Assembly: GCF_024346355.1 (NCBI RefSeq)
Contig: NZ_JAGQCU010000010.1
Span: 1-64,000 of the forward strand
Origin: Cyanobium sp. ATX 6A2
Lineage (GTDB): Bacteria > Cyanobacteriota > Cyanobacteriia > PCC-6307 > Cyanobiaceae
Length of the DNA stretch: 64,000 bases
Reading direction: 5' to 3'
Part shown: piece by piece, positions 25,728-48,019 of the stretch
Position numbering within the stretch: the stretch's first letter is position 1
Layout: every line of letters begins with the position of its first letter
Translations under genes and position numbers: made by a program
The notes under the pieces: model-generated
Told to the model about the DNA's origin: nothing
Database searches by the model: none
The model's input: only the letters and a program-made list of their open reading frames with translations

Positions 25728-25928
25728 TCAGTTGCCCACGTTCACCTGGGGGCGCCCGGTGACCAGTTCCACCTTGAGGATCTTGCCGCCCTGTTTCATG
25801 ATCCGCTGCTGTTCAGCGAACCAGCTGTCGTAGGGAACCCACTTCGTGAAGAAGGTGTTCTGCAACTCCCGCTGAGTGCGGGTTTTCTCCGGAGAGGGAA
25901 TGCAGGCTGTGATCTTGAACAGGCGCAT
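25728..25928 (-). CDS. apcC: allophycocyanin core linker, 7.8 kDa
   Basis: This small linker caps the allophycocyanin trimers at the ends of the phycobilisome core cylinders. The 66-residue sequence is the CpcD-like fold with MRLFKITACIPSPEKTRTQR, LQNTFFTKWVPYDSWFAEQQ and a GGKILKVELVTG strand. It is the last gene of apcA-apcB-apcC, 32 bp after apcB, with a strong terminator behind it. Confidence 0.97.
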   Translation of the reverse strand: MRLFKITACIPSPEKTRTQRELQNTFFTKWVPYDSWFAEQQRIMKQGGKILKVELVTGRPQVNVGN

Positions 25929-25960
25929 GGGGAGGATCCGTGGGTGAGGCTGAGGCCGGA

Positions 25961-26449
25961 TCAGTTGCCCAGGCCGGAGCAGATGTAGTCGAAATACACC
26001 GCCATTTCACGGCCGGCATCGGGACCCACCAGGGATGCAGTGACCTCCTTCATGGCCTGGATCGACTGCACGGTGGCACCGATGGGCACACCCAGGGAGT
26101 TGTAGGTCTCCTTGAGGCCGTTGAGGACGCGCTCATCGAGGATCGAGGTGTCACCCGCGAGCATGGCGTAGGTGGCGTAGCGCAGGTAGTAGTCGAGGTC
26201 GCGGATGCAGGCGGCGTAGCGACGGGTGGTGTACATGTTGCCGCCCGGACGGGTGATGTCCGAATACAGCAGCGACTTGGCCACGGCTTCCTTGATGATG
26301 GCCGAGGCGTTGGCGCTGATGGTGGCAGCAGCCCGAACCCGCAGCTCACCGCTGGCGAAGTACTGCTCCAGCCGGCCCATGGCGGAGCCGTCCAGGTACA
26401 GCCCCTGAACGTCGGCCTGATTGATGACGTTGGTGATGGCGTCTTGCAT
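25961..26449 (-). CDS. apcB: allophycocyanin beta subunit
   Basis: ApcB pairs with ApcA in the core trimer and carries one phycocyanobilin. The 162-residue protein matches closely from [19 protein letters not shown]. The bilin Cys lies in [18 protein letters not shown] (about residue 82), and the region before it contains RPGGNMY with the Asn that is normally methylated. It is 44 bp after apcA. Confidence 0.98.
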
Positions 26450-26493
26450 GAATCCTGCAGTGGGGGCGGAGGGGATGGGGTGTGGGTGCGACC

Positions 26494-26979
26494 TCAGGAG
26501 AGGGCGCCGACGATGTAGTCGAAGTAGAAACCGGCTTCTTCAGCGTCGGCACCGGTGAGCAGCCCCATGGCGGCGTTCTTCATTTCCCGGACCGCCTCGG
26601 CCATGGCATCGAGGGGGGTACCCAGGGCGCGGTACATCTCCTTGGCGCCGATCACGCCGATCTCCTCGATGGGAGTGACGTCGCCGGCCACGACTCCGTA
26701 GGTGACCAGGCGCAGGTAGTAATCCATGTCGCGCAGGCAGGTGGCGGTCATCTCCTCGCCATAGGCATTGCCGCCGGGGGAGATGACGTCGGGACGACGC
26801 TGGAACAGCGCGGCGCCAGCGCTCTTGACGATGCGCTCACGGCTCTCGCTCAGCACCTGGGCGACGCGTACCCGGCGCTGGCCAGCGGCCACAAAGGATT
26901 TGATCTGGTCGAGTTCGCCAGGGCTGAGATAGCGGGCTTCAGCGTCCGCGTTGATGATCGAGTTGGAGACGATGCTCAT
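26494..26979 (-). CDS. apcA: allophycocyanin alpha subunit
   Basis: ApcA is the alpha subunit of the core allophycocyanin trimer. The start is the ATG at 26979, giving [20 protein letters not shown], the conserved N-terminus; the frame is open up to 27072 but those residues are not homologous. A GAGG ribosome-binding site lies upstream. The bilin Cys is in [17 protein letters not shown] (near residue 81). Length 161 is usual. Confidence 0.98.
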
Positions 26980-27250
26980 GCAGTTCTGCCTCGAAACAAG
27001 CGGTCGCCTTAACGGAGACCGGTATCCGGTGAGTGATTGGGTGTGACCGACTCGCGTCGATCGCCCAAGCATTCTGCGCCAGCGCCCCGACCCCCTCTCG
27101 CCGCCGGTAACAGTTCTTCACGGCTACAGTTTTCGCTAGATCCCTTGCGGCGCAGTCAGTTTCGGCTGCATCGCTGATCTCCTCCGCAACTCCCGCAAGT
27201 TAACCATTGGGTGCTTTTGATTGCGCCGGATCGCTATGCAATTTTGATGC
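26980..27250 (-). promoter_or_regulatory. apcABC leader and promoter region
   Basis: Between the apcE terminator and the apcA start are about 270 bp without a supportable gene. A long leader is usual for apcA. The stretch is more AT-rich than the flanking genes. I cannot place a -10/-35 pair with confidence. A 13-base run GTTGCGGAGGAGA on the minus strand looks like a ribosome-binding site but has no good open frame after it. Confidence 0.45.
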
Positions 27251-27280
27251 AAAAAAATGCGCCCGCCGATTAGCGGGCGC
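27251..27280 (-). terminator. rho-independent terminator after apcE
   Basis: On the minus strand, GCGCCCGC pairs with GCGGGCGC around a 6-nt loop, followed by a short A and a run of seven Ts. It lies 28 bp after the stop of the apcE 3' part, so the apcE unit seems to end here, before apcA. Confidence 0.85.
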
Positions 27281-27307: not shown

Positions 27308-27865
27308 TCAGATCGCGCCCTTGGGAGAGGGCGTGAGGCCGGCGTTGCCGCCATAGAGGGCGGCCGTGCGATTCACTGTGACCAGAGGCACGCCATCACT
27401 GGTGGCGAGGCCGCGCACGTAGGGCACCGTGTCCTGTCCGAAGGCGGCGGCGTAGTCGGCGCCGTTGAGCAGATCCTCAATCGCCGCCGCCAATCCGCGG
27501 CTGGTGCGCAGGGCCAGGAAGCGACTCGATTCAGCCGGTTGGGCAGCCCTGCCCAGCAGGGCGAGGTGGGCGGCGGCCGCCGTGCGCAGGGGGGCCAGGC
27601 GGTTCAGCCGTTGCTGGAATAGATCGCTTGCGGCCACCACGGCAACGAATTCAGCCACGGTGAGTTGGCCGTTGCGGAACTGGGACTCGCTGTCGCTGAG
27701 CCGCTCGGCAGCCAGCGGCACCCGGTTGAGCAATTGCCGGTAGACCGCCTCAATGGCTGTCTGGATGTCGGTTTCGCTGGTGGTGCGGCCGAGCTGGATC
27801 GGTTGGCCCAGGCTCTGGCGCCGTCCGAAGCCCTGGGGCTGCCCCGGCCGCAGCGCCTGCGCCAT
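27308..27865 (-). pseudogene. apcE: 3' part of apcE: third linker repeat, cut off by a stop
   Basis: The 185-residue open frame starts at an internal ATG and encodes a complete PBS-linker repeat: IQTAIEAVYRQLLNRVP, ESQFRNGQLTVAEFVAVVAASDLFQQRL, LLGRAAQPAESSRFLA and DYAAAFGQDTVPYVRG. It is in the same reading frame as the upstream apcE open frame, and the 40 codons between them are open apart from one TGA at 27988-27986. A GGGAG five bases before the ATG could allow separate translation. If the stop is real, the third core-linker domain is lost or made as its own polypeptide; if it is a sequencing error, apcE is a normal protein of about 1,005 residues. Confidence 0.8.
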
Positions 27866-27985
27866 GGCCGCTCCCGGTTGCCGGGCCGGAGTGGCTGCCA
27901 GGTTGGAGCCAATCGCTTTTGTCCAGCCCCCAACCGTGGAGGGACCTGCGGGGGTTGGCCTGAAACCGCTTCCCCCGGGGGTGCG

Positions 27986-30325
27986 TCAGAACCCTGTCCC
28001 ATCCTCGGCGCGCCAGCGGCGACTGGGCAGGGGGCTGGTGCGGATGCTGCCGGGACCGCTGCTCCTGGTGGGGGTTGTGGCAGCTGGAGTTTCGCCGCCG
28101 GCGACCTTGGCGCTCCACACACCCCGCACCACGGTGCGTTGATCGGGAAGGTTGCGCCGCGTGATGTCGCCGGTGGTGCGCAGGCGCTGGTCGGCCCGGA
28201 TTTCGGGGCGCTGACGCCCCACCGGATCGGAGTAGCGGCTGGCATCGAAGCCCTGGTTGAGGCCGGGTACCTGACGCGCATTGCGGTCGGCCGGCGTGAT
28301 GAAGCGCTCGAAGGGGACCGTGTCTTCGCCGAAGCAGTCGTTGTAGTCCTGGCTGTCCAGCATCCGGTCGACGACGCCGTAGAAGCCCTTGCGGGCGGCG
28401 GTGTCGAAGTAGGCGTCGATCTCCCAGCGCCCGAAGGTGGGTCGGCCGAGCAGGCGACGGTGCATCACCTCGATCGCCTTGGTGATGTACAGGGCACTCC
28501 AGTAGCGACGGCGGAAGGCCTTGCTGCGAGCCACCTGCCGCACGAATTCCCGCAGGCTGATGTCGCCGTTCTCGAGCTTGATCTCTTCCACCTTGTTGCG
28601 CTCGCCGGCGTAGCCGGAGGTGCCCAGCACCTGCACATACACCGCGTTGATCACGGCCTGGGTGCTGCTCTCGGTGTTGCGCACGCTGGGCTGGCCGCCT
28701 CGCCGGGGCACGGAACTGCCACCGGTGGCGATCTGCCGCAGCCGCACCACGCGGGGCCCGACCCTGCGGGGGGTGGCCTGGCGGAACTGGGGGCTGTCCA
28801 TCTGGCCGGGCTGGGCCAGGCCGTTGCCGATCAGGATCCGCCGAGAGTCGTAGCTGAACGGCGCCGGCCGCGTGGCCACCATGGCCGTGGAGGAGGGGAA
28901 GATGGCGCCGTAGGTGAGGGCGAGGGGATCGTTGCCGCCGCCGTAGGCGTGCTGGTCGGCCAATGGCTGGCGATAGGACGCGTACAGCGTCACGTACTGG
29001 GGCGCCCCCTCAAAGGGAGCGCTGAAGCGGAACAACTTGCGGTTGCTGCCCCAGCCGGCACTCTCCTGGGCCTCCTCGCCGAGGTCGCGCAGGAAGGGCA
29101 CGGTTTCCTCGCCGAACACCCGGGCGTATTCCATGGAGTTCAACAGGGAGTCCACCAGGCCCGGCAGTCCCTGGGCGCTGACGATGTCGAAGTAGCGCGT
29201 GAATTCCTCGCGGGAGCTGATTCCCCGCCCGAGAAAGTGGCGGAAGGCCAGCTCAACGGCGCGGCTGTTGGAGAAGCGGCCATAGAACTGCCTCTGATAC
29301 TCCTTGCTGCGGCCCAGGGCGCGGATGAACTCGCGCATGGAGATCTGGCCCTGGCGCACCTGGGTGGCTTCCACCGGGCACACCTCCAGGCTGTAACCCT
29401 TGACGATGTCGCGTTCGAACACCTGCCGGTAGGCGGCACGCATCACCTCAGCCTTCTGGGCCCCGCTCATGGCTGGCCGCATGTTGAACCGCTGGGCCTT
29501 GCCCTGGGCTCCGAGGGCATAGGTGGCCGGCAGCTGCAGGCCCTGATTCACCGGGCTGCCGAGCCGCTGGCGCGCTGAGGGCGTGGGCACTGCCAGCTCG
29601 GCGATCAGCACGTTGAAGTACTGGATCACCAGAGCGCGCGTCTCTGGCTCGTCCTTGAACAGGCCGGCGGCAGCTGCGCGCATTTCCTGCAGGGCCACAT
29701 TGGTGGCGGCCAGGGAGCAGGCTTTCTCCAGCACGTCCCGCAGGCCGCGGGTGTTCACCGCCAGGATGCTGGGGTCGCCGGCCACCAGCGCGTAGCTCAC
29801 ATAGCGCAGGAACCAGGCCAGGTCGCGGATCGACTTCTTCATCCGCGCCGTGCCGTACCGGCCCACGGCGATGGGGCTGAACCCCGGGGGCAGGATCACG
29901 CGCACGTCGGCGTCGCCACCGGCACCATCCAGCAGCCGGCGGATCAGGTTCCCCCGGCCCTCACTGGTGGTCGCCTCGCCCACGAATGTCTGCACGGAGC
30001 GGCGGAAGGCCACCTGGTCGGCAGCCAGAGGGGTGGCCTCGGCGGCGGTGGCCGGAGTCAGCGGCGCATCGAGATAGGAGAGCGGTGTGCCGCCGGCGAA
30101 GATGCGGTTGGCGGCCTTGGCCACGATGGCTTCGGCGTTGGCCGTGATCCGCCGGGCTGCTTCCACGCGCCGCTGACCGCTCTGGAAAAAGGTGATCAGG
30201 CTGTCCAGTTCCCCCCCGTCGGGGAAGCGATCCGCCTGCTCGGCCTGACGGACGCTGGACAGCGGCAGTGTGTCGTAGCGCTGGGGAGCAACCCTGGTGC
30301 TGCCGCTGCTGGCGGTCACGGTCAT
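27986..30325 (-). CDS. apcE: phycobilisome core-membrane linker ApcE, 5' part
   Basis: ApcE anchors the phycobilisome to the thylakoid and is its terminal energy emitter. The start at 30325 gives the known N-terminus MTVTASSGSTRVAPQRYDTL. Residues about 20-245 are the phycobilin-binding alpha-LCM domain; the bilin Cys lies in DVLEKACSLAATNVAL (near residue 203). Two linker repeats follow (AAYRQVFERDI...KEYQRQFY and NAVYVQVLGTSGYAGERNKV...RRRYWSALY), with further linking arms between them. The protein stops at 779 residues in a Pro/Ser/Thr-rich segment, before the third repeat normally present in marine Synechococcus ApcE. Confidence 0.93.
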   Translation of the reverse strand: MTVTASSGSTRVAPQRYDTLPLSSVRQAEQADRFPDGGELDSLITFFQSGQRRVEAARRITANAEAIVAKAANRIFAGGTPLSYLDAPLTPATAAEATPLAADQVAFRRSVQTFVGEATTSEGRGNLIRRLLDGAGGDADVRVILPPGFSPIAVGRYGTARMKKSIRDLAWFLRYVSYALVAGDPSILAVNTRGLRDVLEKACSLAATNVALQEMRAAAAGLFKDEPETRALVIQYFNVLIAELAVPTPSARQRLGSPVNQGLQLPATYALGAQGKAQRFNMRPAMSGAQKAEVMRAAYRQVFERDIVKGYSLEVCPVEATQVRQGQISMREFIRALGRSKEYQRQFYGRFSNSRAVELAFRHFLGRGISSREEFTRYFDIVSAQGLPGLVDSLLNSMEYARVFGEETVPFLRDLGEEAQESAGWGSNRKLFRFSAPFEGAPQYVTLYASYRQPLADQHAYGGGNDPLALTYGAIFPSSTAMVATRPAPFSYDSRRILIGNGLAQPGQMDSPQFRQATPRRVGPRVVRLRQIATGGSSVPRRGGQPSVRNTESSTQAVINAVYVQVLGTSGYAGERNKVEEIKLENGDISLREFVRQVARSKAFRRRYWSALYITKAIEVMHRRLLGRPTFGRWEIDAYFDTAARKGFYGVVDRMLDSQDYNDCFGEDTVPFERFITPADRNARQVPGLNQGFDASRYSDPVGRQRPEIRADQRLRTTGDITRRNLPDQRTVVRGVWSAKVAGGETPAATTPTRSSGPGSIRTSPLPSRRWRAEDGTGF

Positions 30326-30450
30326 GGACGAGAGCGAACAGGGCTGGGTCAACCTACGGCTGCCTCCTCGGGGCCCTGGGAGCCCATGAACAAATATTTG
30401 CAGCGTTGGCGCGGCCGGCGTGAAATGCTCCCTGCAGTGATCCCACAGCC

Positions 30451-45595: not shown

Positions 45596-46608
45596 CAGTC
45601 GGCCTCCTGTTCGGCGGGCTGTGGGGGCCGCCACCAGCCGGCCAGCATGGCCAGCACCGCCTCAGCGCCGATCACGCCTACGAAGCCGCCGAACTCATCC
45701 ACCACCACCCGCACCCCGCCGCTGTTGCGCCGGAAGCCCGTGAGCAGGCGATCGGCGCGGATCATCTCCGGCACGTATTCCACCGGTTCGCTCAGGTCCG
45801 CCGGCGTCCGCTGACCCTGGCCCTCGAGCAGGGCGGTGAGCAGCCGTTCGCGGCTCACCACACCCACGATCTCATCCACCTCGTCGCCGAGCACCACCCA
45901 CCAGGGGTCGGGATTGGCGAGCAGCTGGGGTCTGGCCAGCTCCAGGCGCTCAGCCGCAGCCAGGGTCGGCGCGGCCACCCTCGGGGTCATCAGATCCCTG
46001 GCGGTGAGGTCGTTGAGCTGGAACACCTTGGCGATCATGGCCGCCTCATCCGCCTCGATCTGGCCCTTCTGCGACCCCAGCCTGGCCAGCAGGCGGATCT
46101 CGTTCTCGTCGGTGCTCAGTTCGCTCTCGGCGGTGATCGCCGGCAGTAGCCGTTCCAGCAGCACGACAAGGGGACGCATCAGCATGGCCAGCAGGTGAAG
46201 CGGCGGGGCGCTGGCCAGGGCCACCGGTAGCGACAGGCGGCTGCCCAGGGCCTTGGGCAGGATTTCCCCCAGCAGGATCACCAGCACGGTGAGCCCGATC
46301 GAGAACAGGGGCAGGGCCAGGCCTTCAATCCCGCGGCGCTGGAACACCTGGGCCGCGAAGGCGCCCAGCATCAGGCTGCCGAAGATGTTGAAGCCATTGT
46401 TGGCAATCACCAGTACCGCCAGGGTGCGGCCCAGGCGTTGACGCAGCTGCCCCAGCCGAAGCGCCCCCTTCACCGGCCGGGCACGCCCCGCCAGTTCGTG
46501 GACGCGCACCGGATTGACGGTGAGCAGAGCCGCCTCCACGCCAGAGCAGAGGGCCGAGCCGACCAGCACGATCAGCACCAGCAGGGCCAGGACCAACAGG
46601 TCGTTCAT
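45595..46608 (-). CDS. CNNM/CorC-type transporter with CBS domains
   Basis: The 337-residue protein has an N-terminal DUF21 membrane domain (LLVLALLVLIVLVGSALCSGVEAALLTV, here given as LLVLALLVLIVLVGSALCSG and VEAALLTV; further helices through about 150; GEILPKALGSR) and a C-terminal CBS pair (LTARDLMTPRV, EIVGVVSRERLLTAL, GGFVGVIGAEAVLA). These proteins are linked to magnesium or cobalt efflux. No CorC_HlyC domain is visible after the CBS pair. The start at 46608 is 88 bp from the divergent pepP gene. Confidence 0.82.
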   Translation of the reverse strand: MNDLLVLALLVLIVLVGSALCSGVEAALLTVNPVRVHELAGRARPVKGALRLGQLRQRLGRTLAVLVIANNGFNIFGSLMLGAFAAQVFQRRGIEGLALPLFSIGLTVLVILLGEILPKALGSRLSLPVALASAPPLHLLAMLMRPLVVLLERLLPAITAESELSTDENEIRLLARLGSQKGQIEADEAAMIAKVFQLNDLTARDLMTPRVAAPTLAAAERLELARPQLLANPDPWWVVLGDEVDEIVGVVSRERLLTALLEGQGQRTPADLSEPVEYVPEMIRADRLLTGFRRNSGGVRVVVDEFGGFVGVIGAEAVLAMLAGWWRPPQPAEQEAD

Positions 46609-46696
46609 GGGGTGGTGGGGCCCTGGGCCATCACACCATTTAATCGGTGGTGGCGAGGATTGTTCCAAACTGGCTGTCAGATCAGCTCTGAGAGGG

Positions 46697-48019
46697 GTGC
46701 CGTTGACGTCGATTCACGCCCAGCGTCGCCAGCGCTTCCTGGAGCGGCTGGGGGGGGTGGCGGCGGTGATTCCCGCGGCGCCCCAGGTGACCCACCACGC
46801 TGACTGCGAATACCCGTTCCGCCAGAACAGCGATTTCTGGTACCTCACCGGTTTCGATGAGCCCGATGCCGTGGCGCTGCTGCTGCCGCATCGCCCGCCG
46901 GGGGAGCGCTTTGTGCTGTTCGTGCATCCGCGCGAAGCCAGCGCCGAGGTGTGGACCGGTTTCCGCTGGGGCAGTGAAGGGGCCGTGGAGCAGTTCGGGG
47001 CCGACCTCGCCCATCCCCTCAGCGAGCTGGCCGAGCGGCTGGCCGACTACCTGAGCGGTGCGGAGGGCATCGCGTTCCGCATCGGCAAACACCCCCAGGT
47101 GGAGCCCCTGGTGCTCTCGGCCTGGGCCCGGCAGCTGGACCGGGCACCGCGCACCGGTGTGGCGGCCCTTGGGCTGGTGGCCCCCTGCCCGATGCTGCAC
47201 GCGCTGAGGCTGCGCAAGCAGCCCGAGGAGCTGGAGCGGATGCGGGAGGCCTGCCGGATCTCAGCTGAGGCCCATGAACGGGCCCGGGAGGTGGTGCGAC
47301 CAGGCCTCAATGAACGGCAGGTGCAGGCGGTGATCGAGCAACATTTTCTGGAGCAGGGTGCCCGCGGCCCGGCCTACGGCTCGATTGTCGCCGGGGGCGA
47401 CAACGCCTGTGTGCTGCACTACACGGCCAACAACGCCCTGCTGCGCGACGGCGATCTGCTGCTGATCGATGCCGGCTGTTCGCTGGGCGATTACTACAAC
47501 GGCGACATCACGCGCACCTTCCCGGTGAATGGCCGCTTCTCAGCGGAGCAGCGGCAGCTCTACGAGCTGGTGCTCGCGGCGCAGGAGGCGGCGGTGGCAA
47601 CCGTGGCCCCGGGGCAGACGGCCGAAGCCGTGCATGCCACCGCCGTGCGGGTGCTGGTGGAGGGTCTGGTGGAGCTCGGCCTGCTCAGCGGTGAGGTGGA
47701 CGGCATCATTGAGCGCGGCGCCTACCGGCACCTCTACATGCACCGCACCGGCCACTGGCTCGGGCTCGACGTGCACGACGTGGGGGCCTACCGGCTGGGC
47801 GAGCACCCCCAGGAGCTGGAGCCGGGCATCGTGCTCACGGTGGAACCGGGGCTGTACGTGAGTGATCGCCTGCCGGTGCCGGAGGATCAGCCCGCCATCG
47901 ACGAGCGCTGGAAGGGCATCGGCATCCGCATCGAGGACGACGTGGCCGTAACCGAGCATGGCCATGAACTGCTCACCGCCGCCGCTCTCAAGGCTCCAGC
48001 AGCGATGCAGCGCGACTAG
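46697..48019 (+). CDS. pepP: Xaa-Pro aminopeptidase (aminopeptidase P)
   Basis: PepP removes an N-terminal residue ahead of proline. The N-terminal AMP_N domain has CEYPFRQNSDFWYLTGF; the pita-bread catalytic domain has the metal ligands in LLIDAGCSLGDYYNGDITRT (two Asp), HRTGHWLGLDVHD (His), LTVEPGLYV (Glu) and IGIRIEDDV (Glu). The start is GTG 46697 or TTG 46703, after a GAGAGGGG. 440 residues, normal length. Confidence 0.93.
   Translation: MPLTSIHAQRRQRFLERLGGVAAVIPAAPQVTHHADCEYPFRQNSDFWYLTGFDEPDAVALLLPHRPPGERFVLFVHPREASAEVWTGFRWGSEGAVEQFGADLAHPLSELAERLADYLSGAEGIAFRIGKHPQVEPLVLSAWARQLDRAPRTGVAALGLVAPCPMLHALRLRKQPEELERMREACRISAEAHERAREVVRPGLNERQVQAVIEQHFLEQGARGPAYGSIVAGGDNACVLHYTANNALLRDGDLLLIDAGCSLGDYYNGDITRTFPVNGRFSAEQRQLYELVLAAQEAAVATVAPGQTAEAVHATAVRVLVEGLVELGLLSGEVDGIIERGAYRHLYMHRTGHWLGLDVHDVGAYRLGEHPQELEPGIVLTVEPGLYVSDRLPVPEDQPAIDERWKGIGIRIEDDVAVTEHGHELLTAAALKAPAAMQRD

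Follow-up and report, generated by a model that had tools for sequence, protein, structure and literature searches.

A single in-frame stop codon probably leaves Cyanobium sp. ATX 6A2 with a two-repeat ApcE, and similar truncations appear to recur among related picocyanobacteria

Introduction

How many linker repeats ApcE carries is accepted to determine the architecture of the phycobilisome core, and this number is usually taken to be a trait of the lineage. The apcE gene of Cyanobium sp. ATX 6A2 raises the question of whether a single codon may change this number. In the 64,000-nucleotide stretch analyzed here (positions 1 to 64,000 of contig NZ_JAGQCU010000010.1; hereafter the window), apcE ends at a TGA (27988-27986, minus strand) between its second and third repeats (REP2 and REP3), and the same frame is open on both sides of it (open reading frames 27986-30352 and 27308-27865), as an earlier note on this DNA had pointed out. 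The note had proposed either that the stop is real, so that a two-repeat ApcE and a separately translated linker are made, or that it reflects an assembly error or readthrough.

Excerpts from Six et al. 2007 (PMC2246261) describe four ApcE repeats in the marine Synechococcus strains CC9311 and RS9916 and three in all the others, and ask for wider screening of apcE. According to the excerpted text of two other papers, REP4 is needed for the extra C cylinders in Anabaena (PMC8448738), and a two-repeat ApcE, with its two REP domains, scaffolds a bicylindrical core (PMC10810746). A search of titles and abstract openings in open-licence PubMed Central returned no report of a truncated or two-repeat ApcE in Cyanobium or freshwater picocyanobacteria.

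Results

The gene was identified as apcE by its PB domain followed by PF00427 repeats and by its position in an apcE-A-B-C cluster (Table 1). Profile searches gave a PF00502 match of 89 bits and two PF00427 stretches ahead of the stop, and downstream of it a full PF00427 match (103-105 bits), which bears out the earlier reading of an entire linker repeat behind the TGA. The open reading frame closed by the TGA spans 27986-30352 on the minus strand; alignments to solved ApcE chains begin at query residue 10, so translation probably starts at ATG 30325 and gives a product of about 779 aa. Behind the TGA, 225 codons remain open and encode the complete third repeat before the next stop (TGA, 27310-27308). 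A conserved Met codon, ATG 27865, lies 41 codons beyond the TGA in the same frame and is preceded by the GGGAG recorded in the earlier note; no in-frame ATG, GTG or TTG was found in the spacer before it (27866..27985).

Table 1. Features of the apcE locus in the window (all coordinates are window positions)
Feature	Position	Strand	Remarks
apcE up to the TGA	27986..30325	-	PB chromophore domain and two linker repeats, probably ~779 aa; PF00502, two PF00427 stretches
REP1 (PF00427)	29087..29461	-	133 bits
REP2 (PF00427)	28304..28675	-	136 bits
Conserved tail motif GPGSIRTSPLPSRRW	28013..28057	-	PxRxW end kept in 23/23 truncated ApcE examined
In-frame TGA	27986..27988	-	both closest relatives have the Trp (TGG) of WRTPGG here
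Remaining REP2-REP3 spacer	27866..27985	-	open, still recognizable
Orphaned REP3 open frame	27308..27865	-	185 aa counted from ATG 27865, the conserved internal Met; coordinates include the stop codon
REP3 (PF00427), intact	27413..27778	-	105 bits; branch omega 0.025
Intrinsic terminator-like hairpin and T run, 3' of REP3	27259..27280	-	one found; weak
apcA, apcB, apcC, intact, downstream of apcE	25728..27072	-	apcE-A-B-C order

The hairpin 3' of REP3 is weak as a scan result (one found against a shuffle mean of 1.0), and a search between the TGA and REP3 gave no promoter-like site; because of both observations, all three repeats probably lie on one transcript. An ApcE query of the genome, whose assembly is rated 100% complete with 0.39% contamination, gave one full-length place and no second apcE, and three of the 11 PF00427 matches in the genome belong to the apcE locus. 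The same genome also encodes, on contig C1 (L270:246-1073), a second linker of rod-core type; its C-terminal stretch is hydrophobic, and it may resemble CpcL. Across the 41 genomes searched, CpcG copy number showed no visible difference between truncated and intact genomes. Since it lay in the same range in both groups, no matching change in antenna or rods was seen, and co-loss of a rod-core linker was rejected.

The stop was then compared with the corresponding codons of close relatives, as the earlier note had advised. The nearest named records are Cyanobium (PLM2.Bin73, CSSed165cm_191R1, CH-040, and Prado107) rather than marine Synechococcus, which the note had taken as its reference; the organism is thus a picocyanobacterium of Cyanobium and freshwater type. 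The two closest relatives (G011 and G012; ~92% identical) read Trp at the TGA position in an uninterrupted three-repeat frame of 1011-1019 codons, the G012 match holding one TAG ahead of the region used in the codon comparison. The codons after the stop, WTKAIGSNLAATPARQPG, proved to be conserved linker-coding sequence as proposed, both relatives carrying WTKALSTNLAATPARQPG in one frame. Relative to them the change amounts to a single G-to-A (TGG to TGA). A frameshift was rejected in favor of a point change because the spacer frame agrees with the relatives on both sides of the TGA. The open frame behind the stop is not there by chance, since it runs into REP3 in 11 of the 12 other genomes of the genus; in the twelfth (G008), apcE reaches the end of its contig. 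The TGA was seen in none of the relatives examined; they show Trp, other sense codons, or other stops elsewhere. In ATX 6A2 exactly two repeats precede the stop, and the three do not share one translated frame, as the TGA separates REP2 from REP3. A pattern spanning the stop codon had no match in the viral contig set (viral_contigs).

In a scan of the window against three relatives, apcE was the only gene with a clear mid-gene in-frame stop that has highly identical sequence before and after it. The remaining stops in the scan fell in low-identity shadow frames or in the first tens of codons of open frames, and we judged them, as a group, not to be genuine. One such TGA (window 46714-46716) stands where G012 has Trp, near the N-terminal end of a frame that is 93% identical (45601-46794, minus strand), possibly upstream of the true start.

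We surveyed 400 genomes of the family, 206 of which yielded ApcE. Among the 150 apcE entries in the matches listed, 26 had an open frame shorter than 925 aa. All were inspected: 23 stop in the REP2-REP3 spacer and three are cut by contig ends. Spacer truncation thus affects 23/150 of the entries listed, a count that could miss, among the entries above 925 aa, a truncated gene whose open frame extends far upstream. Of the 163 loci named, two were dropped as their matches began beyond residue 30. The 111 distinct ApcE sequences comprised 82 intact, 23 truncated, and six cut; this set is enriched, 24 loci having been taken for their short frames, so that 23/111 is no frequency and 23/150 of the listed entries comes closer. 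Truncated genes occur in several single-contig genomes (G230, G079, G116, and G088), and named examples are Vulcanococcus limneticus LL, Cyanobium usitatum Tous, Synechococcus RedBA-s, and SynAce01. In these organisms the stop lies in the same spacer just past PxRxW, as in ATX 6A2, but the stop codons and positions differ and REP3 ranges from intact to deleted. Two database observations arose from the survey. G226 has two apcE-like places (C27:154099-156153 and C16:5283-7334), a second copy or contamination, and the record L068 appears to be mistitled, since its apcE contig is cyanobacterial although the title reads Bifidobacterium breve MAG.

On a FastTree phylogeny of the first 690 ApcE residues (105 tips after the six contig-cut sequences were left off), parsimony required 15 changes, and the truncated tips formed 15 separate clades. 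Spacer truncation thus appears to have arisen independently about 15 times in Cyanobium-type and related picocyanobacteria. With support of 1.0, the tree pairs the ATX 6A2 genome with its two closest relatives, truncated Vulcanococcus limneticus with GreenBA-s, and L190 with Morenito 9A2. The independence of some events rests on weak nodes with local support from 0.35 to 0.67, namely those placing L065 (0.35), L187 (0.42), and L183 (0.67); the stops of these three differ from those of their neighbors in codon or position.

The positions of the stops followed a pattern. The segment after REP2 was kept in 23 of 23 truncated ApcE sequences up to a motif that is typically GPxS(I/L)RQxPxPxRxW, and all 23 truncations fall 1-36 codons past PxRxW, none of them inside REP3. 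One-step changes to a stop were counted in 63 intact sequences (those of the 82 in which both motif and repeat could be located, 19 being left out): 18% of these nonsense opportunities lay in the tail between motif and REP3 and 58% in REP3. The four fresh cases, with a single stop and a full in-frame REP3 (ATX 6A2, L065, L094, and L183), all have the stop in the tail, for which this model gives a chance of about 0.001; in older truncations, the first stop seen is not necessarily the first to have arisen. In ATX 6A2, L065, L190, and L183, the stop stands where the nearest intact relatives have a Trp.

Behind the stop, REP3 was full and in frame in five of the 23 truncated genes, partial, cut, or shifted in 12, absent in five, and beyond the contig in one, a series that looks like domain loss caught at differing ages. 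Branch models run with our own codon-model script, in which terminal branches include the time before the stop, gave a REP3 omega of 0.025 for the ATX 6A2 branch (one-sided upper bound near 0.08; background 0.073). Values for other split genomes were 0.044 (L065), 0.057 (L094), 0.091 (L190), 0.096 (L047), and 0.138 (L183), with backgrounds of 0.05-0.10 across the branch tests; in L189, REP3 is shifted out of frame and omega was unconstrained. REP3 omega was thus low in most split genomes tested, on branches that also cover the time before the stop. The lack of relaxation on the ATX 6A2 branch implies that the stop is very young, that REP3 is still made, or that the base is wrong. The spacers of L190, L047, and L189 hold multiple stops or a frameshift ahead of a REP3 without internal stops, which makes them candidates for a split linker.

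Discussion

We consider it likely that the TGA is a genuine, very young nonsense mutation that yields a two-repeat ApcE and, by the repeat-to-cylinder rule, a two-cylinder core. Among the readings offered by the earlier note, a real stop giving a two-repeat protein has the strongest support, as relatives show the same truncation about 15 times over. For the same reason a base-call or assembly error, by which the living strain would carry TGG and an ordinary three-repeat ApcE, seems improbable. Such an error would have to affect only one base; otherwise the spacer and REP3 have every appearance of being functional, and the branch shows no relaxation. Against this, a lone stop before a full in-frame REP3 was also found in G139, G216, and G250 among the entries listed, and the later stages of decay in other lineages cannot be single base errors. 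We estimate the prior for a fresh real stop at ~2% (these three among the 149 other entries listed), and that for a stop by error at ~1e-4 if an error rate of 1e-5 per base is assumed. Regulated or leaky UGA readthrough, giving mostly two-repeat and some three-repeat ApcE, is less probable still and gained little support. The frame does continue past the TGA, and the next base is C, not U, a +4U being reported in an excerpt of PMC5289835 to lower readthrough. However, prfB is present, and the anticodons read at all 40 tRNA places were ordinary, none being TCA, so that a UGA-reading suppressor tRNA was rejected. Moreover, other lineages carry TAG, TAA, or several stops, the TGA of ATX 6A2 is shared by none of the relatives examined, and no conserved stop with conserved flanks, as expected of programmed readthrough, was found across them.

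In another explanation, which we regard as unlikely, the TGA does terminate ApcE, but a second start at Met 27865 on the shared transcript yields REP3 as a protein of its own, which still joins the core in trans. Consistent with this, terminal-branch constraint on REP3 was seen in five of the seven split genomes tested (L009, L065, L094, L190, and L047; one-sided upper omega bounds of ~0.3 or less), most intact relatives keep the internal Met, and a search between the apcE parts detected no promoter-like site. L190 retains a clean REP3 behind four in-frame stops and indels in its spacer, and L047 one that is clean up to the contig end behind two spacer stops; these two offer the best hints of REP3 expression. 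The GGGAG that had been put forward as the ribosome-binding site of a separate linker does not stand out: predicted anti-Shine-Dalgarno pairing in ATX 6A2 (-6.6 kcal/mol) is equalled by intact L014 and L042 and is not stronger than in intact relatives, and split genomes with a full or near-full REP3 range from -1.9 to -6.6 against an intact median of -4.7. Since pairing in split genomes is no better than in intact ones, GGGAG is best explained by the codons for Pro-Gly-Ala-Ala. Furthermore, L183 has lost the conserved Met, the REP3 of L189 is out of frame and unconstrained, and most truncated lineages have a damaged REP3 or none; the TGA-to-ATG gap of 120 nt would also be long for coupled reinitiation. 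That some picocyanobacteria of the family have a two-piece core linker, a two-repeat ApcE plus a single-repeat linker building the third cylinder, is a doubtful though slightly less remote proposition.

If the stop is a young nonsense mutation, as we favor, a single G-to-A (TGG to TGA) would have created the nonsense codon in the variable REP2-REP3 spacer of the only apcE, and translation would stop past the PxRxW tail motif, leaving a clean two-repeat core-membrane linker. Without REP3, the hexamers of the top cylinder would lack their scaffold, so that the 779-aa ApcE should build a two-cylinder core; REP3 would then be useless and decay, as it seems to have done at later stages in other lineages.

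ATX 6A2 shares the gene, domain order, and apcE-A-B-C cluster with the three-repeat ApcE (LCM) of tricylindrical cores (marine Synechococcus and PCC 7002). It differs in that the third repeat is encoded in frame downstream of a point at which translation should end. The predicted product instead resembles two-repeat ApcE, such as ApcE2 of PCC 7335 and the 705-aa PDB chain 9wg7_N2, in having a PB domain, two repeats, and a short tail; PCC 7942, described in excerpted text as having a bicylindrical core, was compared as another two-repeat system. Unlike in these systems, a three-repeat gene would have come to this state recently in ATX 6A2, through a nonsense mutation that leaves REP3 in place behind the stop, and the tail after REP2, with the PxRxW motif, had no match in solved structures.

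The recurrence across the family is a more interesting result than the single stop. About 15 times, it seems, single mutations at one boundary have reduced the repeat number from three to two, and every stage from a fresh stop to a deleted repeat is still visible among relatives. Recurrent truncation also makes the split-linker idea directly testable. If that idea were true, cylinder number could be set by the amount of the second linker piece made, with L190 and L047 as established examples and ATX 6A2 as a newly formed one. The natural pairs of relatives that differ in REP3 provide a way to ask what the top cylinder does.
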